Source: Chloroflexota bacterium | GTDB lineage: Bacteria; Chloroflexota; Anaerolineae; Anaerolineales; Villigracilaceae | Length of the DNA: 64,000 bases | Direction of reading: 5' to 3' | NCBI GenBank assembly: GCA_016223135.1 | Contig: JACRPQ010000016.1 | Coordinates: 124,001-188,000, forward strand | Shown: positions 1 through 64,000 of the stretch, in pieces | Layout: the number at the start of each line of letters is the position of its first letter | How positions within the stretch are numbered: the stretch's first letter is position 1 | Made by a program: the position numbers and the translations under genes | Notes under the pieces: generated by a model | Told to the model about the DNA's origin: nothing | The model's database searches: none | Seen by the model: only the letters and a program-made list of their open reading frames with translations

Positions 1-585
1 TTGATTCCAGCGGCAACCTGCATGGTCTTCGTAATGCTGGTATTCATGGCGGTCCTGATACCTGGCAAGCCACGGCATGGAACTATGACCATGCTCGAGA
101 AGCAGGATCAAGCCGTTCGGTCGGCAGATGCGTTTGATCTCCTGTAGTGCTTTGACTGGATTCGGAAATGTACAGGTGGACAAGGTCGAGACCACAGTGT
201 CGAAAGTCGCATCGGGGAATTCAAGATGTTCGGCATCCATCACTGCAAAGTTTACGCTCAGTTCGTTTTGGGTTGCGGTCTTACGCGCGACTTCCAGCAT
301 CCTGGGGCTTAAGTCCACTGCGGTGATGTCACTGCCAACTGGGAGCAGGGGAATGTTCGAGCCGATTCCACATGCCACTTCCAAAATTTTCCCATTTGCT
401 TTTGAAAGTAGATTCTTTTTCAGCCGCGCCACACCTAGGATGTGCTGGTCGAACCATGTCTTTTTCTCGTATTGATCGGCGATCTCATCGTAGGCGTTTT
501 GTATTTGGGTTGCCGTTAACTTGACGCTGAGAGGGATGCGTTGGGGTTTGCAGGTCTTTCCTTCGTGTGTTGCCATCGTTTTCAT
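1..585 (-). CDS. Class I SAM-dependent methyltransferase (partial, runs off the left edge)
   Basis: Reading leftward from ATG at 585, an open frame of 195 codons reaches the window edge without a stop. An AAAGGAG ribosome site sits about 6 bases upstream. The protein shows a Rossmann methyltransferase: ILEVACGIGSN (motif I), then VDLSPRMLEVAR (acidic residue binding SAM ribose), then a DAEHLEFPDATFD loop and LILLLEHG. This resembles the Methyltransf_11/UbiE group that methylates small molecules or lipids; the substrate cannot be told. It is transcribed divergently from the TetR gene at 719, whose product probably controls it. The C-terminus lies outside the window. Confidence 0.85.
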   Translation of the reverse strand, partial: MKTMATHEGKTCKPQRIPLSVKLTATQIQNAYDEIADQYEKKTWFDQHILGVARLKKNLLSKANGKILEVACGIGSNIPLLPVGSDITAVDLSPRMLEVARKTATQNELSVNFAVMDAEHLEFPDATFDTVVSTLSTCTFPNPVKALQEIKRICRPNGLILLLEHGHSSMPWLARYQDRHEYQHYEDHAGCRWNQ

Positions 586-602
586 GATTGCTCCTTTTTG
601 TT

Positions 603-651
603 ATACTGTGTAACAGTATGTGCATTGTAGCCAGCCTGATAAGCAAGTCAA
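603..651 (-). promoter_or_regulatory. Promoter and palindromic operator of the left-edge methyltransferase
   Basis: On the minus strand a TTGACT -35 (646-651) and TACAAT -10 (624-629) are 16 bases apart. Directly downstream lies the inverted repeat ATACTG-N5-CAGTAT (603-619). A repressor bound there would block initiation, and the divergent TetR-family gene is the obvious candidate. Confidence 0.65.
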
Positions 652-668
652 TTGCGGATGTGGTGCTG

Positions 669-709
669 ATGTAACATAAGTTATAGAAAGCCGTGTTTTG
701 TAACAAAAC
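669..709. promoter_or_regulatory. Two further TGTAACA palindromes before the TetR gene
   Basis: ATGTAACAT (669-677) and GTTTTG-TAA-CAAAAC (695-709) are perfect dyads. Together with the 603-619 site, the heptamer TGTAACA occurs three times in about 100 bases between the divergent genes. The arrangement suggests operators through which the TetR protein controls the methyltransferase and itself. Binding is an inference. Confidence 0.45.
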
Positions 710-718
710 TGGATAACC

Positions 719-1330
719 ATGCCAAGAAAATCATCCCCCGTAAACATTGACCCGCGCGTCAAACGTACACGCCGCTTATTGCGCGACGCGCTGGTTTCAT
801 TGATCCTAAAGAAAGACTTCGCCTCCATCACGATCAGGGAGATCACGGAACGCGCCGAGGTGGCTTACATCACGTTCTATCGACATTACGAGAGTCTCGA
901 TCAGTTATTGATGGAAGTGCTGGATGAAGGGTTGGCAGAGTTGATGACCCACATCGAGACGCTGGCGAAACAGTCCGATACATCCGCCCTTGAAACAGAA
1001 GGTCGTCTCATCTTCGAATACATCGAGCAGAAAGCCGATCTCTTCCGCATCCTGCTCAAAAGCCAGAGTGTGACACGTGTCCGCAGGAAGGTTGTGCGAA
1101 ACATTTCTACTGTTTTCCAAAAGTCCTGCGTGCCGTTGGAAAGACTGGGAAATCAAACGACGATTGAAATTGCATCGAATCACATCGCCACGTCTTTACT
1201 GTCTTTGATCGAGTGGTGGCTGGAAAATAACATGAAACCCACCCCAACGGAGATGGGAAAGGTTTACAAGAGTATGATCATCGATTCAACGGTGGGGGCG
1301 GTGAGTTCATTGTCGGCCATGAAGAAATAA
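719..1330 (+). CDS. TetR/AcrR-family transcriptional regulator
   Basis: The protein has 203 residues, usual for the family. Residues about 15-62 form the helix-turn-helix DNA-binding domain (KRTRRLLRDAL ... ITIREITERAEVAYITFYRHY), with the recognition-helix signature before YRHYESLDQLL. The rest is a helical ligand-binding and dimerisation domain of the type seen in TetR_C-like regulators that start with PRKS. It probably represses the divergent methyltransferase gene through TGTAACA palindromes in the shared intergenic region. Its effector cannot be told from sequence. Confidence 0.88.
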   Translation: MPRKSSPVNIDPRVKRTRRLLRDALVSLILKKDFASITIREITERAEVAYITFYRHYESLDQLLMEVLDEGLAELMTHIETLAKQSDTSALETEGRLIFEYIEQKADLFRILLKSQSVTRVRRKVVRNISTVFQKSCVPLERLGNQTTIEIASNHIATSLLSLIEWWLENNMKPTPTEMGKVYKSMIIDSTVGAVSSLSAMKK

Positions 1331-1390
1331 CGATCTCATAGCTTGAATAAAACGCCCTTATTGCTTAAAGAATTGACCCATCTGCATTGA

Positions 1391-1420
1391 TATATTACAA
1401 TATTCTAAATATCTAATATA
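1391..1420 (+). promoter_or_regulatory. AT-rich inverted repeat upstream of arsR-like gene
   Basis: TATATTA (1391-1397) and TAATATA (1414-1420) form a perfect 7-base inverted repeat 16 bases apart, 11 bases before the ATG. ArsR-family operators are commonly AT-rich dyads in this position, so autoregulation is plausible. Confidence 0.45.
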
Positions 1421-1431
1421 AATAGGGCCCC

Positions 1432-1752
1432 ATGACAGATCGAAGTTTATACAAGATTCACGCGAATATTTGTCACACCTTAGCCAATCCCAAACGGTTG
1501 GAGATTATAGACAGGCTCCGAAATCGCGAAATGTCCGTTACTGAACTCGCTGGAGCCTTGGAAATCAGCCAATCCAATCTTTCGCAACATCTGGCACTGA
1601 TGCGCGAACGAGGTATTCTGATAACCAGGCGTAAGGGGTTGAATGTCTATTATGCCTTGAGTAACCCAAAAATCATTCAGGCATGTGATTTGATGCGGCA
1701 GGTATTGCTGGAACATCTGGAGACTGATGTTAAATTGGCACGGAAAAAATAA
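1432..1752 (+). CDS. ArsR-family winged-helix regulator
   Basis: The protein has 106 residues with a typical HTH_5 winged helix: HTLANPKRLEIIDRL, then MSVTELAGALEISQSNLSQHL (recognition helix) and the wing ILITRRKGLNVYY. It has two cysteines, C14 and C85, in positions compatible with a thiol or metalloid switch, but it lacks the classic ArsR ELCVCD metal box. It lies 20 bases upstream of the DsrE gene and likely forms an operon with it, ending at the terminator at 2142-2174. The sulfur-type neighbours suggest sulfur, selenium or metalloid sensing; this is an inference. Confidence 0.85.
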   Translation: MTDRSLYKIHANICHTLANPKRLEIIDRLRNREMSVTELAGALEISQSNLSQHLALMRERGILITRRKGLNVYYALSNPKIIQACDLMRQVLLEHLETDVKLARKK

Positions 1753-1772
1753 ACCTACCAGGAGATCATGTA

Positions 1773-2123
1773 ATGACTGAATACCTACTTATTATCAACG
1801 ATGGTCCTTATGGAAATGAACGCCCATACAATGCTCTACGCTTGGCGATGAACCTTGCCAAGCGCGAAGCAACCCATGTCCGCGTTTTTCTGATGGGTGA
1901 TGGCGTACAATGCGCCATCAAGGGACAGGAAACTCTGCAGGGGTACTACAACATTGAGCGTATGTTCACCGCCGTACTGCGCGGCGGCGAAGTAGCAACC
2001 TGAGGGACCTGCCAGAAAGCCCGAGGTCTCGGGCCAGATGCCATTATGGAAAATATCCAGATCGGGTCTATGGAATTATTGACTGACTGGACGATTGCGG
2101 CTGACAAAGTTTTAGTATATTAA
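1773..2123 (+). CDS. DsrE-like sulfur-relay protein with in-frame TGA, probable selenoprotein
   Basis: The frame runs 116 residues if TGA at 2001-2003 (codon 77) is read as selenocysteine; otherwise it stops after 76. The upstream part is a DsrE/F domain (LLIINDGPYGNERPYNALRLA ... VFLMGDGVQCAIKGQET). After the TGA the same frame continues GTCQKARGLGPDAIMENI, then GSMELLTDWTIAADKVLVY, matching the DsrE C-terminus. The family motif at this point is CGTC, so the TGA replaces the first cysteine of a CxxC redox pair, giving UxxC. A SECIS-like hairpin follows at 2019-2034, and the terminator comes only after the longer stop. DsrE-like selenoproteins are an established bacterial class. An AGGAG site precedes the ATG. 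The alternative is a nonsense mutation in a Cys homologue. Confidence 0.82.
2001..2040 (+). promoter_or_regulatory. Bacterial SECIS-like hairpin after the in-frame TGA
   Basis: GCCCG (2019-2023) pairs with CGGGC (2030-2034) around the loop AGGTCT (2024-2029), and the stem can extend by A-T and G-C pairs. The loop is identical to the SelB-binding apical loop of E. coli fdhF and starts 20 bases after the TGA, within the accepted bacterial SECIS range. Confidence 0.75.
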
Positions 2124-2141
2124 CCAATCCGGAATATTCGA

Positions 2142-2188
2142 TCCGGCAGGATTCACTTTTGGAATCCTGCCGGAACTTTTTACCTTTT
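2142..2188 (+). terminator. Rho-independent terminator of the ArsR-DsrE operon
   Basis: A perfect 13-base stem, TCCGGCAGGATTC (2142-2154) with its complement at 2162-2174, has a 7-base loop and is followed by ACTTTTTACCTTTT. It lies just after the distal (readthrough) stop of the DsrE gene. Confidence 0.85.
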
Positions 2189-2214
2189 ATTGCCAGTATT
2201 TACAGGAATGTTAT

Positions 2215-2784
2215 ATGAAGACCAGAGAAAGCGGAATGCCAAACGAACAAATGTGGGACAATTTTTTTGATCCAGATGCCATACTCGACCAATTGAATGT
2301 CTGTAAACTGACCGGAACCATTGTGGATCTTGGTTGCGGATATGGAACATTCACGATCCCGGCAGCCAGGAAGAATTCAGGAACAATTTATGCTTTGGAT
2401 ATTGAGGGAGAAATGATCCAGGCTGTTCAAGAGAAAGCCAACGAAGCCGGAGTGAAAAACGTGTTCCCGGTACAACGAGATTTTATGGTGGAAGGAATCG
2501 GTTTGCCCGACAATAGTTGTGAATATGTCATGCTCTTCAATCTGCTTCATGCTGAAGAACCATTGAAAATATTGATGGAAGCGATGAGAGTCCTTGTGCC
2601 GGGCGGCAAGACAGGCGTAATTCATTGGAATTATGATCCAACAACTCCCCGAGGGCCATCGTTGGATATCCGACCGCGACCAGAACAATGCCAGGAATGG
2701 ATCATGCTCGCAGGTTTTGAATTAATCGTGCCACATCTCGATTTTCCGCCATTCCATTATGGCATGGTGGGTCAGAAGCCTTAA
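2215..2784 (+). CDS. Class I SAM-dependent methyltransferase
   Basis: The protein has 189 residues. Motif I is IVDLGCGYGTFTIPAA (about 37-52), followed by ALDIEGEMIQAVQEKA (acidic ribose-binding residue), the region DNSCEYVMLFNLLHAEEP (motif IV-like) and RVLVPGGKTGVIHW (post-motif region). The N-terminus RESGMPNEQMWDNFFDPD belongs to a compact methyltransferase group; the methyl acceptor is unknown. It follows the ArsR-DsrE operon across a terminator and precedes a nucleoside phosphorylase gene. Confidence 0.8.
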   Translation: MKTRESGMPNEQMWDNFFDPDAILDQLNVCKLTGTIVDLGCGYGTFTIPAARKNSGTIYALDIEGEMIQAVQEKANEAGVKNVFPVQRDFMVEGIGLPDNSCEYVMLFNLLHAEEPLKILMEAMRVLVPGGKTGVIHWNYDPTTPRGPSLDIRPRPEQCQEWIMLAGFELIVPHLDFPPFHYGMVGQKP

Positions 2785-2846
2785 TCCTGTAATCGTTAAT
2801 GAACTCGCAGCCAGCAAGTAATCAATTTTAAAATTTCAGGAATATC

Positions 2847-3650
2847 ATGATTGAAATAAATAATCACCCCATCATCAATGATAAAGATCATTCAATGCCT
2901 TCCGTTTTTACGCCCGAGAATCTGTTGCGTGAGGCAAGAAGGCAAAAGTCCATCCCTGAGGGACCCGTCCCGGGAATTTGTATTCTTGATCCAGACGGCG
3001 ATATTGTCCAGAACCTGATAGCCAGCGGTCAGGCAAAGATCAATCCCCATTGGGCATGTTATCACACCCAAATGTATAACTTTACTTATAAAGGGTTAGA
3101 GTTCGGCATCGTCGGAAACGCAGTTGGTGCATCATTTGCAGTGCTAGTGGCGGAAGAAATGTTTGCATGTGGCTGCAATTTGCTGGTCAGTATGACCTCG
3201 GCAGGTCAAATCGTTTCGAAGGGGACGCCACCCTATTTTGTACTTATTGAGAAGGCGTTACGTGATGAAGGAACCAGTTACCATTACCAACCACCATCGA
3301 AATTCAGTGTTATCAATCCCCAATTGCTGGAAGCCCTCAAAAACATGTTGGATGAATCGCAACCGCCCATATTCCTGGGAGCAACCTGGACTACAGATGC
3401 GCCGTTTCGAGAAACCGAAACGGCAATTGAGGATCGCCGGTCACAAGGTATTTTAGGGGTGGAGATGGAGGCATCCGCTCTCTATGCTTTTGCCAGGGCA
3501 AAAGAAAAGCCGGTGGTTTGTTTTGCCCATATTACCAACCAGATGGGCAATGTCGAGAATGACTTTGAAAAAGGCGAAGCGCAAGGCAGTCGGGATGCCA
3601 TCGAGGTAATTTATAAGACTGCGGAAGCCTGCCAGCTATTTATCAACTAA
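2847..3650 (+). CDS. Nucleoside phosphorylase (PNP/UDP family)
   Basis: The protein has 267 residues. It shows the family glycine-rich segment FGIVGNAVGASFAVLVAEEM, the central LLVSMTSAGQI, and the hallmark GILGVEMEASALYAFAR, where the Glu-Met-Glu binds the nucleoside ribose. Members cleave nucleosides phosphorolytically (uridine, purine or S-adenosyl-derived). The substrate is not determined by what can be seen. The neighbouring methyltransferase makes methylthio- or adenosyl-nucleoside turnover one possibility. AGGAA precedes the start. Confidence 0.8.
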   Translation: MIEINNHPIINDKDHSMPSVFTPENLLREARRQKSIPEGPVPGICILDPDGDIVQNLIASGQAKINPHWACYHTQMYNFTYKGLEFGIVGNAVGASFAVLVAEEMFACGCNLLVSMTSAGQIVSKGTPPYFVLIEKALRDEGTSYHYQPPSKFSVINPQLLEALKNMLDESQPPIFLGATWTTDAPFRETETAIEDRRSQGILGVEMEASALYAFARAKEKPVVCFAHITNQMGNVENDFEKGEAQGSRDAIEVIYKTAEACQLFIN

Positions 3651-3673
3651 AAAATATCCAAGGAGAGAATGCC

Positions 3674-4909
3674 ATGTCCGATAAAAAAATCTTAATATTA
3701 GGTGGCGGTATCGGCGGGCTGATGGCCGCCAATGAATTGCGGCGGCTCCTGCCGGCTGAACACCACATCATATTGATCGAGAAGAACTCGCAACACAGCT
3801 TTGCACCTTCCTTTCTGTGGCTGATGACCGGCGAACGCAGGCCGGAGCAGATTACACAGGATGTACACCACCTGGTTCGTACCGGTATTGAGGTGTTATT
3901 GGCAGAAGTACAAGGTATTGATCTGTCCAATCGCCTTGTTCGAACCAGCACCAAGGAACTTGGTTTCGATTATCTTGTCTTTTCCCTTGGGGCTGAATTC
4001 GCTTTCGATGCAATCCCTGGTCTGGCGGAAAGCGCGCAGACCTATTACACCTTCGAAGGTACAACAAAACTGCGTGGTGCGCTGGGAAATTTCAAAGGCG
4101 GGAAGGTGGCTGTTGTGGTAAGTGCCCTGCCTTATAAATGCCCCGGTGCGCCGCATGAGGGCGCCATGCTCATTGCCAATGAGTTACGCAAACGTGGTTT
4201 GCACGACAGCGAGGTGCATTTGTTTACACCCGAGCCTCAACCTATGCCTGTGGCGGGCCCAACTCTGGGTGACGCCGTGAAGCAAATGCTGACTGACCGA
4301 GGGATTGTTTTTCATCCATTGCACAAGCTGACGGAAGTAAACCCCGTCAACCAGGAGTTAATCTTTGATGGAAAGGGATCCTTCCATTATGATCTGCTCG
4401 TGGCAATCCCTCCACATCGTGGCAGTCGTATCGCCCGGGAGGCTGGATTGGCAAATGAAGCTGGCTGGATTCCAGTGGATCGTGCCACACTTCGCACACA
4501 ACACGAAAATGTGTATGCTTTGGGTGACGCAACGGCAATCCAAATTCCTGGACGGTGGAAGCCGGATGTGCCCATGATGCTGCCGAAAGCTGGTGTGTTT
4601 GCCCATGCCCAGGCCGAGATCGTCGCACGTCGGCTTGCAGCAGAAATCATGAGCAAGAAAAACGAGGATGTATTCTATGGTGAAGGCTATTGCATGCTGG
4701 AAGCAGGAGAAAATGTAGCCGGGTTTGCTTATGGCAATTTCTTTGCCGAACCTTCCCCGCAAATCCAGCTCCGCAAATTGGGTTGGTTCTGGCATATGGG
4801 CAAGGTGCTGTTCGAACAATGGTGGCTTTCCCCGTATGGGCTGAAGCGTGAACTCTTGAGGCAGGCACTTCACCTGGGAGGCAGGTTGTTTGGTATTCCC
4901 ACAATTTAA
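3674..4909 (+). CDS. FAD-dependent oxidoreductase, sulfide:quinone reductase-like
   Basis: The protein has 411 residues, the usual length for the sulfide:quinone oxidoreductase and type II NADH dehydrogenase superfamily. An N-terminal dinucleotide fold, ILILGGGIGGLMAANEL, binds FAD; a second nucleotide-binding region and the FAD motif NVYALGDATAI follow. It contains exactly two cysteines, C156 in PYKCPGAPHEGAM and C340 in GYCMLEAGENVAGFAYGNFF, positions matching the redox pair of sulfide:quinone reductases; the third, FAD-linking cysteine is absent. The C-terminal aromatic and basic helices (WFWHMGKVLFEQWW) may dock on the membrane. The start has AAGGAGAG. With DsrE it suggests a sulfide, persulfide or selenide handling set. 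Confidence 0.78.
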   Translation: MSDKKILILGGGIGGLMAANELRRLLPAEHHIILIEKNSQHSFAPSFLWLMTGERRPEQITQDVHHLVRTGIEVLLAEVQGIDLSNRLVRTSTKELGFDYLVFSLGAEFAFDAIPGLAESAQTYYTFEGTTKLRGALGNFKGGKVAVVVSALPYKCPGAPHEGAMLIANELRKRGLHDSEVHLFTPEPQPMPVAGPTLGDAVKQMLTDRGIVFHPLHKLTEVNPVNQELIFDGKGSFHYDLLVAIPPHRGSRIAREAGLANEAGWIPVDRATLRTQHENVYALGDATAIQIPGRWKPDVPMMLPKAGVFAHAQAEIVARRLAAEIMSKKNEDVFYGEGYCMLEAGENVAGFAYGNFFAEPSPQIQLRKLGWFWHMGKVLFEQWWLSPYGLKRELLRQALHLGGRLFGIPTI

Positions 4910-4910
4910 A

Positions 4911-4951
4911 TTGCAACGCCCAAGGTGAGGGGGGCACCCTGGACGTTGCAA
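4911..4951 (+). terminator. Hairpin after the oxidoreductase gene
   Basis: TTGCAACG (4911-4918) pairs with CGTTGCAA (4944-4951), with an inner CCA/TGG and GGTG/CACC stem and single mismatches. It is followed by AAGATATTTT. It probably marks the end of the left gene group and the boundary with the transfer region. Confidence 0.6.
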
Positions 4952-5015
4952 AGATATTTTACCAAATATTCCGCCCCGTACAGAACTGCTGTCGCCAATT
5001 TAACCCAAGACAAAA

Positions 5016-5056
5016 GCGACACCTTCCCCCTACCCATCCATTCATCTGTATATCAT
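5016..5056 (+). promoter_or_regulatory. Element promoter A (GCGACAC-N28-TATCAT)
   Basis: GCGACAC at 5016-5022 is followed after exactly 28 bases by the -10 hexamer TATCAT at 5051-5056. An ACCC box starts 10 bases after the heptamer. The next in-frame ATG (5066) is 9 bases past the -10. The same layout recurs at five other operons in this window. Confidence 0.75.
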
Positions 5057-5065
5057 GAGCAACCA

Positions 5066-5461
5066 ATGACCTGGTTGCTCTTTTATCTTCTAGCTGTGAG
5101 CCTGTATGACCTGCGCACCCGGCGCATCCCGAACTGGTCCACCTATCCGTTGATCCTGGCGGGCATGATCGCTCACTTCCCCGGACATATGGATTTGTGG
5201 CTGGCATGTTTTCTGCTGCTTTCTTCCTGGGCAAGTGGCTGGATGGGTGCCGGGGATGTCAAACTGTGGATGGCAGTTCTTTGGGCGTTACCCGATTCCA
5301 ATACGCCATCCTTGATCCTGCTTGTGTTCCTTTCCTTCCTGATCACCAGCATGATTCAGTTCTTCTGGAGACTTATTCAGAAGCAATCCCTTACCGGCAT
5401 GAAATCTCCTGCCGCCTGGCGAACTATTCCGTTTCTTTTGATGGTCTGGCATGTACACTGA
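5066..5461 (+). CDS. A24 prepilin peptidase-like membrane protein
   Basis: The protein has 131 residues from ATG 5066. A longer frame opens at 4925 but crosses the promoter, so it is rejected. It is mostly transmembrane and carries the two aspartates of GXGD aspartic peptidases: VSLYDLRTRRIPNW near the N-terminus and GWMGAGDVKLWMAV in the middle. This is the size of TadV/CpaA-type enzymes that cut Flp-like prepilins. It opens the first transfer operon; the mRNA would be nearly leaderless. Its product would process prepilin-like subunits for the Tad-like machinery encoded at 49-53 kb. Confidence 0.8.
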   Translation: MTWLLFYLLAVSLYDLRTRRIPNWSTYPLILAGMIAHFPGHMDLWLACFLLLSSWASGWMGAGDVKLWMAVLWALPDSNTPSLILLVFLSFLITSMIQFFWRLIQKQSLTGMKSPAAWRTIPFLLMVWHVH

Positions 5462-6359
5462 TCTCTTCCTTGCCATGCTCAACCCCAAAAACGCACGCGG
5501 GAATCCCATCCTGTCTGCGCTGGTTTATACCTTCTGTCCCACCGCTGCACGCTGGTGGCTGATGGGTGTAGACCCTACCCCGCCTTTCGATCCAGTCTGG
5601 AAATCCCTGGAAGACCTATCCACCGGAAAAACCCTGGTGGAATTCCTGATCCAATATGGCTTCGAAAACCTCCTTGATGAGATTCGCTCCTATATCCGCA
5701 AGATCGAGGAATATCGCACCCACCATAGTAATTTCCAGGCCCCGGAACTCATGCCCCTCTTTCGGGGCGGGGAAATTCCCATCAGTCGCCGATATGGTTC
5801 CCAGAATGCCATCAACAACCTAGGCGGGGACTGGCGTAACCTATCCATCTATGTCCGCACTTGGGCGTTCCTCTCCCAGGACTGGCGTAAAGCCATGCTG
5901 ATCGGACGCGACTCTGACTACACCCTGAAGGCGGAAAAAGTCTGCCTGACTCTTCCACCTGATGTACGCATGTCTGTCCAGTTCGATACATGGATATGGC
6001 AGGTACAGGTGGGACATGTGACTGAAACCAGAATTGGTTCACTCCTCTCCAATGGCGAACAGGATCAACTCCGCTTTTCCCTGCTTAATCGTTGCACAAC
6101 CCTGGGAAACCAGCCCTGGTCCAACACACCAGCCATCTATTCTTTAAATCGGGAAACCGGTGAAGCAAAGCATTTCGATCAACTCTTCGCCAACCGGGAT
6201 CTGGAAAAAACAGTGATGTCCCTGTCCAACCTGGCGAAGAAGGGACCACACCCACCCTTGAATGCCCTGCAGCAACCATCGATCTGTAAACAATGCGGTT
6301 ATCAGCAGTTGTGTTTTACAAGGAACTATATTTCCCAACACGCCTTGAAGGATCTATGA
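5451..6359 (+). CDS. Unknown element protein with C-terminal CxxC-C cluster
   Basis: The protein has 302 residues and overlaps the upstream gene by 11 bases, so it is probably translationally coupled. I do not recognise the family. The C-terminus has ICKQCGYQQLCF, a CxxC(x5)C arrangement reminiscent of the iron-sulfur cysteines that close Cas4/AddB-type PD-(D/E)XK nucleases, but no convincing D...ExK set is visible. Upstream it is a soluble, tryptophan-rich protein. Its stop overlaps the VirB6-like start (ATGA). Confidence 0.65.
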   Translation: MYTDLFLAMLNPKNARGNPILSALVYTFCPTAARWWLMGVDPTPPFDPVWKSLEDLSTGKTLVEFLIQYGFENLLDEIRSYIRKIEEYRTHHSNFQAPELMPLFRGGEIPISRRYGSQNAINNLGGDWRNLSIYVRTWAFLSQDWRKAMLIGRDSDYTLKAEKVCLTLPPDVRMSVQFDTWIWQVQVGHVTETRIGSLLSNGEQDQLRFSLLNRCTTLGNQPWSNTPAIYSLNRETGEAKHFDQLFANRDLEKTVMSLSNLAKKGPHPPLNALQQPSICKQCGYQQLCFTRNYISQHALKDL

Positions 6360-46764: not shown

Positions 46765-46995
46765 TCATTCCACCTCCACGCTGGCCCAGCTGGGCGCAGT
46801 GGTATACACGGCTGCATCTTCGTGCAGCAGTGTAACGTCGGCGGTATACAGGTAGTCCCCTTGCTGTCGTCCGGCGGAGGCGGCGACGTTGATCGCCTTG
46901 CCATTTACGATCACCATACGTTCATTGGCTGGGAGCGGAAAGGGCGCGTAAATCTTGACGGTTTTTACGGTTGTGATATGATCGGGCTTGTACAT
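46765..46995 (-). CDS. Unknown 76-residue protein
   Basis: It starts MYKPDHITTVKTVKIYAPFPLP. No Shine-Dalgarno is present. It is beta-rich (ADVTLLHEDAAVYTT) and probably heads the minus-strand block, with a large hairpin 12 bases upstream. No family is recognised. Confidence 0.5.
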   Translation of the reverse strand: MYKPDHITTVKTVKIYAPFPLPANERMVIVNGKAINVAASAGRQQGDYLYTADVTLLHEDAAVYTTAPSWASVEVE

Positions 46996-47725
46996 TGTTG
47001 TATACCGAAACCGTCCAGTTGCTGCTGGGCGGTTTCACTTTTTATCTGCCGGGCCTCTCACCCCGGCGAGTCCTCGCTGTCTTGTGCCCCACGTTAGTGG
47101 GGTAAGAAACGAAAACGGGCGTTGGCATGGGAAGTCCATGCACAACGCCCGTTTGTGTTGAGGGGAGTGTTCAGTTTTGGGGTTGGTTCGATCAGCCTCC
47201 TATGAGGGTTTCCAGGGAATATTTTTCACCGACACACCCATGAAAATCATGCAGTGTGTCGGTTCCGACATTGGGCTTGTTAGGGAAGGTTGAACCTGTT
47301 CTGATGGGTTCCCATTTTCCAAGCGTTTGTTATTTCTTTCAGTGAGTTCATGCAAATTTCCAAACAAGCCTGTTTCGTACATGGGGAAAGTGGAGGATGC
47401 GGATGGATTGGTTTGGGGATGGTGAATTTGGGCTCCTTTCGTTGAATGGATGGTGGGGATTGGATACAACAGCAGAAGCCCGGCGGTTTGCCAGGCTTCT
47501 TGAAGAGAGGGATGGATTGTGGAAAATAGGAACAGTGCGGATTATATGGAGTTTGAGAAAACTGTCAAAGTACGTAGGCGGCAGATATTCCTCTTGCATA
47601 TCATTATGCGACCTGTAAAAACGCCCCTATTCCCTACGGGTGAACTTGTGTGTGGGGACCGGGAAATGCAACCATAGGATGCCATCGGACACATCAATAA
47701 TCCTCTTTCCGGGGATTAATCAGAG
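46996..47725. other. Non-coding structured region between the minus block and the + transfer genes
   Basis: No convincing gene lies here. Hairpins are at 47007-47036 (12 pairs), about 47088-47103 (CCCCAC/GTGGGG) and 47113-47154 (AAACGGGCGTTG with complement, then inner GCATGG/CCATGC). A 9-base inverted repeat ACCGACACA/TGTGTCGGT at 47228-47263 contains the CCGACAC box in both orientations. It separates divergent gene blocks. An origin, regulatory centre or leader RNA is possible. Confidence 0.5.
47113..47154. terminator. Long hairpin at the head of the minus block
   Basis: AAACGGGCGTTG (47113-47124) pairs with 47143-47154. An inner GCATGG/CCATGC stem continues with one bulged base. The direction of use is unclear. 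Confidence 0.6.
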
Positions 47726-60368: not shown

Positions 60369-62109
60369 TGAACCTCAAGACCAATTCGTTACCTCCATTG
60401 CTTCGGAAGCTGTGGAAGTGCTGGAAGATCATCTGCTCTTTCCGGGCGGCTATCTGATGCCGCTTTCCGCCCGTGGCACGGGTGTGCCCGGCATGACAGA
60501 TCGCCCCTGGTCACGCTTGTCTGCCGATGTCTTCTATCCCAATCTGCCGGTACTGTATTCGCTTGCTATGCATCGTGAACCGCCAGATGTTCTGCGTGGT
60601 TCTCTGCGTGCAAGGCGCACGCTTTTCGAGGGTTTCATGATGGCGTTGGCAGAGAAGACCGGTCGCCGTCCCTCGATGGCGGAACGTTCCGCCGATCATG
60701 CAATGGATGCGGCGGAGTCAGAACTGACCTTTGGCAAGCCGGCCTTCAAGATCGCCCTGATGAGCGCCCTCTTTGTAGAGCGCAATCGTTTCGAAGAAGC
60801 AGAGGCTGCACGCAGAGTCATTGAATCGAATTTGCGCGCAAGAGGACTTACTGCACAGAGACTCTTCTATATTGCAGAACGCGCCCTGCATCATTTCCAG
60901 CCGGGCGGAAAATTGTTTCCCGGATTAGACGAGCCGACACTCTTTCTTGAAGAGACTCTTCCCTTGATGCCTGCACCATCCAGACAGGTCATGCCAGTCG
61001 AGGATTCGGTCTGGATCGGCACTCATGCCCGCGATGGACGTGACATCCATTTCTCTTTTACCAGGGGACTTGATCCGGCTGTCCCACCACCTCCACATGC
61101 AACTACATTGATCCTCGGTGAACCAGGTGCGGGCAAGACCAGTCTCTTGCGCTGGATCATGTTGCAACGTTTATTACAAGGCAGGACGGTTATCTCCATC
61201 GACCCCGAAGGTGAGAACAACAAACTCTGTGAAGCTGTCGGCGGAAAGGTTGTACCGGCTGGTATTCCCGAAGACAAGGAAACCTGCCTCATTCATCCCC
61301 TGCAAGGGGAGAACCCGGCAGAGTTGTTGCTGGCTGTCCGTTTTCTAATCGCCTCCCTCGCCGGCGAGTCGGTCCTATCCCCGGGTGTGCAAGCTGCACT
61401 GCATGAAGCGGTGAAGCGCAGATGGGATCGCAGACCCGGTGCGATGACCATTGCGGAATTCGTGGAGACTTTGGGGACGATCAATGTTCCTGAAGCCGCC
61501 ATGCCATTGGCACTACTTAGACCCTTTATGCGCGGCGGACTCTTCGAAGGTTTCTTTGATAGACCCAAAGCCCTGCTTTCCCCCCACTTCCCCTCCGGTC
61601 AGTGGTGGAATTTCGATCTTTCTTCATTGCGTGAAGAAAACCGTGCCATCGTGCATTCGGTGCTGGCTTGGTTTTTGTATCATGCCGTCACGGTCGGCAA
61701 ACAACCGATGGACATCTTCATCGACGAAGGTTGGCGCTTGTTGCGCAGTGGACCCTTCACAGATCTGCTGGATGAACTGGGCAGACGCGCCCGCAAACGT
61801 GGGGTCGGCGTGACGCTCATCACCCATCTGCCGGCCGACCTGATGAAGAACCCCACTTCATTGAGTCTGGCATCCACCGCCTTCATCGGTCGGCTCGGAC
61901 CGGATGAGGCTTTCGCCTTTTATCGCTCACTGGGCGTGCCTGAAAGCGAAGCCAGGAAGAATGCTGAGACCACCTCACGTTTACCGCCGCGAGTCTTTCT
62001 AGCAGCTCCTTCTGCGGGACGTGGTGCTTTGTTCCCTGTCCTTGTCTCCATTCCACCGACATGGATCCAGTTCTGGAAACAGCTTGGGGCATTGGGAGTT
62101 CAGCGATGA
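60364..62109 (+). CDS. VirB4-like conjugative ATPase
   Basis: The start is 60364 (leaderless), not 60340, which lies in the promoter. The protein has 581 residues. Walker A is ILGEPGAGKTSLL (about 251-263), Walker B is MDIFIDEGWRLL (about 449), and LGRRARKRGVGVTLITHLPADL and the C-terminal ATPase features are typical of VirB4/TraC. It energises pilus or T4SS assembly and interacts with the PrgI/VirB3-like protein encoded at 10164. Its stop overlaps the start of the coupling-protein gene (ATGA). Confidence 0.8.
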   Translation: MSEPQDQFVTSIASEAVEVLEDHLLFPGGYLMPLSARGTGVPGMTDRPWSRLSADVFYPNLPVLYSLAMHREPPDVLRGSLRARRTLFEGFMMALAEKTGRRPSMAERSADHAMDAAESELTFGKPAFKIALMSALFVERNRFEEAEAARRVIESNLRARGLTAQRLFYIAERALHHFQPGGKLFPGLDEPTLFLEETLPLMPAPSRQVMPVEDSVWIGTHARDGRDIHFSFTRGLDPAVPPPPHATTLILGEPGAGKTSLLRWIMLQRLLQGRTVISIDPEGENNKLCEAVGGKVVPAGIPEDKETCLIHPLQGENPAELLLAVRFLIASLAGESVLSPGVQAALHEAVKRRWDRRPGAMTIAEFVETLGTINVPEAAMPLALLRPFMRGGLFEGFFDRPKALLSPHFPSGQWWNFDLSSLREENRAIVHSVLAWFLYHAVTVGKQPMDIFIDEGWRLLRSGPFTDLLDELGRRARKRGVGVTLITHLPADLMKNPTSLSLASTAFIGRLGPDEAFAFYRSLGVPESEARKNAETTSRLPPRVFLAAPSAGRGALFPVLVSIPPTWIQFWKQLGALGVQR

Positions 62110-64000
62110 TCTGTATCAATTGCGGTTATGAACACGCCACCGCTCCAGATCACTGTCCCTTGTGCAAAGGGAAGTGGCAGGGATGGGAGCTACTCTTTGC
62201 GCCGCACGCCTTGGAGGATCTGCGTGCGCAGGTCATGGGTTGGATCGCGCAGTTGCCGTTCCCTTCGATCATGGAATGGATCGCATCACCAAAAGGATTG
62301 CGCGTGCGGCTGTATCTGCCTCCCCATGTGGCAGATGGAGTCGTCCAGTCATGGTCTGCCATGACCGGACAGCATTCCAGATGGTGCAGTTTGGGAGTGG
62401 CAAAGATTCAATTCGATGGATATGCCCTACACACATCGAACCGTTTGCCGTCGTTGATCGCCTCCGCGAAAGACAGCGATCCCCTGCTTGCCATCGGCAG
62501 CCGGTTGATCAGTGCCGCCCGTGACGGGAAAGATGCGAGTCTTCGTTTATGGTTGCTTGGGAATGAAGACCAACTGCAGGAGAAGTTGCGCAGCCTGTCC
62601 TCCTATTCGTATGGCACCGAAGGCGGCGTCGGCAATGACACACCCAACTCCTGGGGCTTGCAATTGGATTTCCTGCGGGCAGGACTGTTCTTCGGGATGA
62701 TCATGGCAGGCATCAGCAGTGGAATTTTGTTCGCAGGTTGGTTCAATCCCTTTGGGGTATCCATGTTCGTGATTGCTGGCATTACGATCTGTGTTGCCTC
62801 TGCATTGGGCATTCGGGACTGGCTTGCCTGGAGATCAATCCCTAAGGAAGTTGTAGAGAGACGGATACAGGAGCCGTTGTTGAAGGTTGCCTTTTCCATC
62901 GCTGAACCGATCCAACTTCCGTTATTGGCTGGAGAACAGACTTGGCAACCCATTGAATCAGTCTGGCCTGCAATCCAGAAACACACATTCCCCTTGCCAG
63001 CCGGTGAACTTGCAGGTCTCATCGCTCCCCTACAATTAGGTGAAGGATCGGGCTTGTTGGATCGTGCCGTTTGGCAGGAAGTGCCAGCACCGCCGCCATC
63101 TCAACCCTTGCTCGAAGCGGGCTTCAAGATCGGACAGAGTGTCGCCACTGGCGAAAAGGTGGGCGTCGATCCGGATGGACATGGTCTTGCAACAGGCGGT
63201 AGCCGTTCGGGTAAATCTTCATTTGTGTATTCGATGTTGGAACAGTTGATCGCCCGTGGCGATGATGCGCCAGGCATATTTCTCGTTGACCCGCACGTCT
63301 CCCTGGCAGATGCCTTCCTGGATGCGATTGCTCAATTGCCGGAGGAACAAAAGCAAAAAGCAATCAAGAGATTACGGGTAATCACTCCGGATCAGCCACA
63401 GGTCATTCCCCTGAATCTTCTTGCTGTCCCCGACTTCACCTGGGCCGGCAACGCCATCGTACAAGTCGGGCGACGCATCTGGGATGACTACTGGGGTCCG
63501 CGTATGCAAGCAGCGTTGCTTGGACTGTTTCGTCTGGCTCATGTCTGGAACCAGCATCATCCGGAAGCGGGACTGGGACTCTTGCATATCGTTTTCATGG
63601 CCTTCAATAAGAGATGGCGGCACACGGCAATGGCGTTGCTGCCGCCCGGCGAACGCATGGGCGCCCTGGCGCTGGATGCCCTGCTGGGTCAGATCGGGGA
63701 GGAGGATAAAAAGAGTCAGAGTTGGATCACGGAGGTGATCAGCCCGGTACTCTCGAAGGTCATGGCTTTGGAACTCTCGCCGTGGCTGTTCTCCGCCATG
63801 CACCAGGAAAGTTTCGTGGACCTCAATCAATGGATCGACGAACGCGCCTGGATCGTATTACGTCTGCCTTCCGGTGAAATGGGACGTGAAGGGGCAAGGT
63901 TGACCGCCTCCGTTCTCTACAACGTCTTCGAGGCTGCTTATCGCAAAGCGACCTTGGAGAAACCTGTACCCTTTTATTTCATCGTCGATGAAGCGCAGGA
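62106..64000 (+). CDS. VirD4/TraG-like coupling-protein ATPase (partial at right edge)
   Basis: The frame is open from ATG 62106 to the edge, over 631 codons. It begins with a zinc ribbon, CINCGYEHATAPDHCPLC. Two membrane helices lie near 190-235. Walker A GLATGGSRSGKSSFV is near 361-375, and Walker B FIVDEAQ falls at the very end of the window. GIFLVDPHVSLADAFL and PSGEMGREGARLTASVLYNVF are further conserved parts. The protein resembles T4SS coupling ATPases that deliver DNA to the channel. The C-terminus is outside. Confidence 0.78.
   Translation, partial: MICINCGYEHATAPDHCPLCKGKWQGWELLFAPHALEDLRAQVMGWIAQLPFPSIMEWIASPKGLRVRLYLPPHVADGVVQSWSAMTGQHSRWCSLGVAKIQFDGYALHTSNRLPSLIASAKDSDPLLAIGSRLISAARDGKDASLRLWLLGNEDQLQEKLRSLSSYSYGTEGGVGNDTPNSWGLQLDFLRAGLFFGMIMAGISSGILFAGWFNPFGVSMFVIAGITICVASALGIRDWLAWRSIPKEVVERRIQEPLLKVAFSIAEPIQLPLLAGEQTWQPIESVWPAIQKHTFPLPAGELAGLIAPLQLGEGSGLLDRAVWQEVPAPPPSQPLLEAGFKIGQSVATGEKVGVDPDGHGLATGGSRSGKSSFVYSMLEQLIARGDDAPGIFLVDPHVSLADAFLDAIAQLPEEQKQKAIKRLRVITPDQPQVIPLNLLAVPDFTWAGNAIVQVGRRIWDDYWGPRMQAALLGLFRLAHVWNQHHPEAGLGLLHIVFMAFNKRWRHTAMALLPPGERMGALALDALLGQIGEEDKKSQSWITEVISPVLSKVMALELSPWLFSAMHQESFVDLNQWIDERAWIVLRLPSGEMGREGARLTASVLYNVFEAAYRKATLEKPVPFYFIVDEAQ

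Follow-up and report, generated by a model that had tools for sequence, protein, structure and literature searches.

The window analysed here, a stretch of 64,000 nucleotides, carries on its forward strand a DsrE-family gene (dsrE; positions 1773-2123) of the YchN-like type, in which an in-frame TGA at codon 77 very probably specifies selenocysteine (Sec). Comparison of homologous genes indicates that this UGA has been retained as a sense codon where the family has its conserved catalytic Cys, with a SECIS-type hairpin downstream, and we put the probability that Sec is inserted there, making the product a selenoprotein, at about 0.93. The wider statement, that this YchN-like DsrE selenoprotein has a role in sulfane-sulfur handling through Sec77 and Cys80 and belongs to an ArsR-controlled unit, is considered fairly likely. 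The gene would encode a small bacterial sulfur-handling protein of a kind that ordinary gene finders are likely to cut short at the Sec codon.

The dsrE reading frame and its homologues

The gene starts with ATG at 1773 and ends with TAA at 2121-2123, and the TGA at 2001-2003 is codon 77. Read-through of the TGA gives a product of 116 residues, in which the TGA-encoded residue is the first of a UGTC motif. A first-pass annotation made from the sequence alone had described this read-through frame and the hairpin behind it, and had interpreted the gene as a selenoprotein gene; the observation was confirmed and the interpretation is supported by the results below. The frame was expected to continue into the DsrE C-terminus, and the read-through product indeed contains the full domain (PF02635, DsrE/DsrF-like; residues 4-115, 66 bits against a gathering cut-off of 22.7). 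ORF calling with table 11 ends the gene at 2003 and yields 76 amino acids, the truncation that had been predicted. As no NCBIfam model reached its cut-off for the dsrE product either (a second copy in the same genome was unmatched at E 1e-10), annotation pipelines will probably record the gene in shortened form.

The host genome (3.8 Mb, 19 contigs, 98% complete) and its relatives were searched for homologues. Among named genome contigs, 38 loci were found, the nearest named relatives being Chloroflexota/Anaerolineales metagenome-assembled genomes, and TGA was found at codon 77 in 20 of them (L017-L034, L047, L048). Of 396 sampled genomes of the class, 53 had a match. A single in-frame TGA was the only stop in 22 matches from 19 genomes; G131, G180 and the genome of the window each contributed two of these. 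One match, in G210, had a TGA plus a TAG, ten were stop-free at E 1.3e-30 or better, and all others either covered only part of the gene or scored worse than E 1e-23. No dsrE match came from the three further sampled members of the window's genus, showing that the gene is patchy. Homologues were also found in 36 plasmid records, all under 60% identity, and the 15 plasmid matches listed bore DsrE/YchN-type annotated names or none.

Codon 77 was then compared among 51 distinct stretches, and was TGA in 35, TGC in 15 and TGT in one. These are the fetched loci that matched the motif pattern, reduced from 59 rows to one per distinct 45-base stretch, which removed L019, L022, L029, L031, L033, L040, L046 and the window itself (L055). 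Also outside the set are L039, L042 and L050, which the pattern missed although they have TGC; L074 and L078, which are stop-free and counted among the ten stop-free genomes but whose residue 77 was unchecked; the partial, frame-shifted or broken L049, L051, L052, L053, L054 and L084; and the second of the two TGA copies in each of G131 and G180. The in-frame TGA is aligned with a Cys in 16 of the 51 stretches. This alignment had been proposed as a check, and together with the UGTC in the translation it bears out the view that a CGTC motif of the family has its Sec counterpart here. On a tree of these rows, many of whose other branches are weak, a branch with support 98/96 separates the 16 Cys rows and two Sec rows (from Peptococcaceae and Fusobacteria) from the other 33 Sec rows; of the latter, one is from Desulfobacteraceae and the rest belong to Chloroflexota or to genomes in the class of the window. 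The Sec/Cys label needs two changes on the tree, and the starred branches force one.

Downstream of the TGA the sequence is under coding constraint. In 33 of the 35 TGA loci the distal stop follows it by 40 codons, the exceptions being L032 (stop at 45 codons, after a five-residue insertion) and L028 (TAG at 32). Protein conservation runs to the C-terminus, and the Cys forms encode the same C-terminus. Past the hairpin, the window and L017 differ by two nonsynonymous changes over 57 sites, with synonymous sites saturated. The post-TGA half evolves faster than the pre-TGA half in every pair compared with the window, and in distant loci it is less, yet still, conserved (in L021, for example, 67% identity versus 85% before the TGA). 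Decay of the downstream frame in close relatives had been named as an outcome that would count against the selenoprotein; the nearest relatives keep both the TGA and an intact frame behind it, and a further stop is held by L028 and L084. These two TGA-type copies (in L028 from 5223-5267 onward; in L084 one TGA and one TAG in frame) have an extra in-frame TAG and are perhaps decaying.

The hairpin downstream of the TGA

A SECIS-type hairpin, GCCCG-AGGTCT-CGGGC, lies within the coding sequence at 2019-2034 on the forward strand, as judged by sequence, fold and comparison. It had been described as starting 16 bases past the TGA with the loop AGGTCT, and the stem GCCCG/CGGGC was found from the 16th base on. 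The label "fdhF-like" given to it we take to mean likeness to the loop of Escherichia coli fdhF. The computed fold adds an A-U pair to the five-pair stem and leaves the loop GGTC, so that a SECIS-type hairpin just past the UGA has a G in its apical loop, as in the bacterial SECIS loop consensus. The folding energy over 2001-2045 (z-score -0.5; 54 of 200 shuffles fold as well) is uninformative alone, and the selenoprotein claim is therefore carried by comparison among loci. An Rfam scan of positions 1-6000 gave four matches, all below gathering scores and none to a SECIS family.

The comparison was made with columns numbered from the TGA as 1-3, the five pairs running from 19-34 to 23-30. The result showed that all five pairs are standard in 31 of the 35 TGA loci and in none of the 16 Cys loci, where at most three of the five positions pair (Fisher p 7e-10, a value that ignores the kinship of the loci). 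In the TGA loci, 91.0% of the cells of the six-pair helix are paired versus 86.3% in column shuffles, and changes on both sides occur in 11 cells versus 4.9 in the shuffles; each value was reached by 0 of 500. Other covariation measures were less striking, the number of pairs with a double change being reached by 23 and the number of pair types by 111 of 500 shuffles. When the partner column was slid by one, pairing fell to 60.5% or 48.6%, and in the Cys forms 29.2% of cells are paired, no better than in shuffles.

Covariation is clearest at pair 21-32, which is C-G in 20, U-A in eight, U-G in five and C-A in two of the 35 TGA loci. In codon terms, an Ala codon GCC faces GGG in 19 loci and GCT faces GAG in eight, while GCT with GGG occurs in three and GCC with GAG in only one, indicating that a silent change on one arm accompanies a Gly-to-Glu change on the other. 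Four TGA loci lack one or more of the five pairs: L059 has one C-A mismatch, and L026, L047 and L048 have three mismatches each, the hairpin of L047 and L048 folding in another register. In L028 the five pairs form. A second DsrE-family gene of the window's own genome (L087 7517-7894, minus strand; C19:332519-332860) also has an in-frame TGA and a hairpin of the same type.

It is extremely improbable that the TGA simply terminates the gene or arose by mutation, the gene being a pseudogene in decay or coding for a working protein of 76 residues and the frame behind it being open by chance: the standard ORF call ending at 2003, the unremarkable hairpin energy and the extra stop in L028 and L084 would fit such a reading, but the stop kept at +40 codons in nearly all loci, the protein conserved to its end, the shared C-terminus of the Cys forms and the covarying hairpin argue against it.

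Selenocysteine machinery of the host

The first-pass annotation had called for a search for selA, selB, selC and selD, and all four are present in the window's genome. The hits comprise selA (E 3e-161), selB (4.8e-88, over the cut-off), a tRNA-Sec (70.2 bits against a gathering score of 47; anticodon TCA by ARAGORN) and selD (L089, C1:218290-219225; E 6e-106). Close to the N-terminal end of its frame, selD contains a single in-frame TGA (SACAG-U-A), suggesting that SelD is probably a selenoprotein as well. SelB and Sec-tRNA would insert Sec at UGA codon 77.

The distribution of the machinery was compared with that of the dsrE forms. selA (E 1e-40; presences read by eye from the result table) was found in 18 of the 19 genomes with clean TGA matches versus five of the ten with stop-free matches (p 0.011), the only TGA genome without it being G180, which is 70% complete. 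For tRNA-Sec (E 1e-9) the figures were 15 of 19 versus five of ten (p 0.20). Because selA is so common in the class (320 of 396 genomes; p 0.14 for the TGA genomes versus the rest), co-occurrence with selA or tRNA-Sec is weak evidence.

These data also bear on whether an altered genetic code or a suppressor could give the TGA the meaning Trp, Gly or Cys instead of Sec. The residue of the homologues is Cys, and Cys can be inserted at UGA when selenium is short, both of which would suit such a reading. However, 17 of the 35 TGA genes themselves end in TGA, implying that TGA is not generally reassigned and that such a gene would use it both as Sec codon and as stop. Moreover, the genome has tRNA-Sec, selA, selB and selD, and the hairpin accompanies the TGA forms and not the Cys forms. 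Decoding as another amino acid is thus judged highly improbable.

Predicted fold and relation to known proteins

AlphaFold2, given the 30-sequence family alignment with Cys in place of Sec, produced a model with a mean pLDDT of 94.7, and the dsrE product is predicted to have a YchN/DsrE-like fold. The best solved matches to the predicted fold were YchN (TM-score 0.92) and the DsrE (0.89) and DsrF (0.86) subunits of DsrEFH, together with DsrH, an archaeal DsrE/F-like protein and chains of TusBCD. E. coli YchN (PDB 1jx7) is the closest solved relative, with 35% identity and a CxxC at the same place, but it has Cys where the window protein would have Sec. In the profile alignment, residue 77 falls on a Cys of YchN, DsrE and TusD. 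The fold is shared with DsrE of DsrEFH (2hy5_A; TM-score 0.89) and with TusD of TusBCD (2d1p_A, which we take to be the protein also named YheN; 0.86), the catalytic Cys of both being aligned with residue 77; unlike the window protein, these two aligned chains are without the second Cys of the CxxC. Identity with TusD itself (TIGR03012) was rejected, the score of 26.6 bits lying below the NCBIfam equivalog cut-off of 89.25. According to PMC3397948, DsrEFH binds sulfur specifically at DsrE-Cys78 and hands it to DsrC, and TusD-Cys78 is named there as the counterpart of DsrE-Cys78.

DsrE-like UxxC selenoproteins (PF02635) have been published since 2005, when they were reported from the Sargasso Sea (PMC1088965). 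"DsrE 1" and "DsrE 2" selenoproteins were reported from the GOS data in 2008 (PMC2398784), a DsrE-like selenoprotein is given for Desulfovibrio vulgaris (PMC1794560), and the type is also listed in PMC9312934 and PMC13188914. The window protein shares with them the DsrE Pfam domain (DsrE 2 and the Sargasso set), the UxxC motif and a SECIS element, a likeness judged by Pfam family and motif, and it is well supported as a further example of this known type. In the available text of these sources, the published proteins are described without gene context or function. Three Chloroflexi selenoproteins are counted in PMC1794560, and the words Chloroflexi or Chloroflex appear nowhere in the available text of PMC2398784, PMC9312934 and PMC13188914. 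Our literature search found no paper joining selenoprotein, Anaerolineae and SECIS, and the matches listed for SaoD, organometal and "selenoprotein DsrE" were all unrelated. According to a 2026 review, almost all selenoproteins of this sort, the DsrE-like ones included, are still largely uncharacterized in function (PMC13188914).

Gene neighbourhood and possible function

In the window, an ArsR-family regulator gene (1432-1752, forward strand; PF01022, and NF033788 over its cut-off) ends 20 bases before the dsrE start. The first-pass annotation had placed the operon terminator behind the distal stop, and a terminator-like hairpin of 13 pairs with a T-run was found there at 2142-2174 on the forward strand (one of seven terminator-like sites in 1300-5000, against a mean of 4.1, sd 2.0, in shuffles). 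The short gap and this strong hairpin suggest that arsR-dsrE is probably a two-gene unit, with the ArsR-family protein as its candidate regulator. Promoter-like sites numbered six versus 5.7 in shuffles and hence were unused. Farther downstream lie genes for a SAM-dependent methyltransferase-like protein (2215-2784, forward strand), homologues of which adjoin dsrE in L017 (TGA) and L036 (Cys), and for a phosphorylase-superfamily protein. They are accompanied by a forward-strand gene at 3674-4909 whose product, an FAD-dependent oxidoreductase, is similar to type III sulfide:quinone reductase (SQR). The best NCBIfam match of this flavoprotein, which has no in-frame TGA, is the selenoprotein subtype of type III SQR, below the cut-off (216 bits versus 525).

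The neighbours of the other loci were collected with ORFs called by a simple script; Pfam or NCBIfam models confirmed three of nine regulators, three of ten SQR-like proteins, two of four desulfurases and both SelD proteins, the rest being assigned by BLAST clustering and reading. As many flanks are only 1.5 kb or less, all counts are lower bounds, and at most of the 35 TGA loci no sulfur gene was among the neighbours found. SQR-like genes, from the sequence cluster of the window's flavoprotein, are no more than five ORFs away from dsrE at 10 of 35 TGA loci, the window included, and at one of 16 Cys loci. An ArsR-type or ArsR-rhodanese gene is directly upstream on the same strand at nine of 35 TGA loci; by motif, five of these nine encode ArsR-rhodanese fusions, two of which Pfam confirmed. 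ArsR-rhodanese-type neighbours occur at five of 35 TGA and five of 16 Cys loci (the Cys count by motif and reading), and cysteine desulfurases at four of 35 and one of 16. A rhodanese-MBL protein is also encoded near dsrE in L063. In L060 (475-1437) and L066 (1811-2782), a selD gene with an internal TGA is the next gene upstream, at a gap of some 40-60 bases.

These neighbours (ArsR or ArsR-rhodanese, SQR-like, desulfurase, SelD) suggest sulfane-sulfur handling. Descriptions of ArsR-type repressors that respond to sulfane sulfur (sHdrR, SoxR), and of BigR, which senses sulfide, are found in PMC12423496, PMC10451225 and PMC5823870. The ArsR regulator beside dsrE may sense sulfur. A sulfur-carrier role is our best guess from the gene context in part of the family. 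The DsrE selenoprotein, probably a homo-oligomer like other DsrE-family proteins, would accept, carry or reduce sulfane sulfur at Sec77 and Cys80 of the UxxC motif through a Se-S-SH or a Se-S bridge, as part of a unit under an ArsR regulator and, in some genomes, linked with an SQR-like flavoprotein. We tentatively propose, at less than even odds, a more specific version: Sec77 would carry sulfur as a selenenyl-persulfide, handed on or reduced via Cys80, within a patchy sulfane-sulfur response cassette (ArsR or ArsR-rhodanese, DsrE-Sec, SQR-like flavoprotein, rhodanese-MBL, cysteine desulfurase) whose DsrE may be the Sec or the Cys form, one replacing the other, and which in some lineages stands directly behind a Sec-containing SelD.

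Alternatively, a Sec protein could deliver selenium, supplying SelD as a Se carrier, or could detoxify metals or metalloids. The selD genes next upstream in L060 and L066 and the desulfurases at four TGA loci would fit delivery, as would YedF, whose DsrE-like domain with CGxC is linked to SelD (PMC5322559); YedF differs from the window protein in having a SirA/TusA-like domain and Cys rather than Sec. The second dsrE copy of the window's genome adjoins a gene for a heavy-metal-type P-type ATPase, whose cluster is found at four of 35 TGA loci, in line with detoxification. However, the ArsR-rhodanese neighbours of both TGA and Cys forms, and the SQR-like and rhodanese-MBL neighbours, fit sulfur better. 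The ArsR-rhodanese argument is weakened by L081 (G336), the only one of the five Cys forms whose genome was searched, since that genome has selA and tRNA-Sec. Taken together, selenium delivery or detoxification appears unlikely, though it survives better than the other alternatives, and sulfur handling is retained as the preferred role. The natural Sec/Cys pairs of the family, some of them in similar neighbourhoods, make it testable what Sec adds at a persulfide-carrying position.

In L063 (736-1401) and L030 (4282-4947), an ArsR helix-turn-helix is fused to a rhodanese domain in the protein encoded upstream of dsrE.

Other read-through frames in the window

When the entire window was scanned with loose criteria for TGA read-through combined with a SECIS-like hairpin, 21 candidates emerged, six of them outside other long ORFs, and among the hairpins listed for those six AGGTCT occurs only in that of dsrE. 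The frames at 62021-62524 and 46988-47293, which lie outside long ORFs and have TGA read-through and loose SECIS-like hairpins, probably arose by chance.
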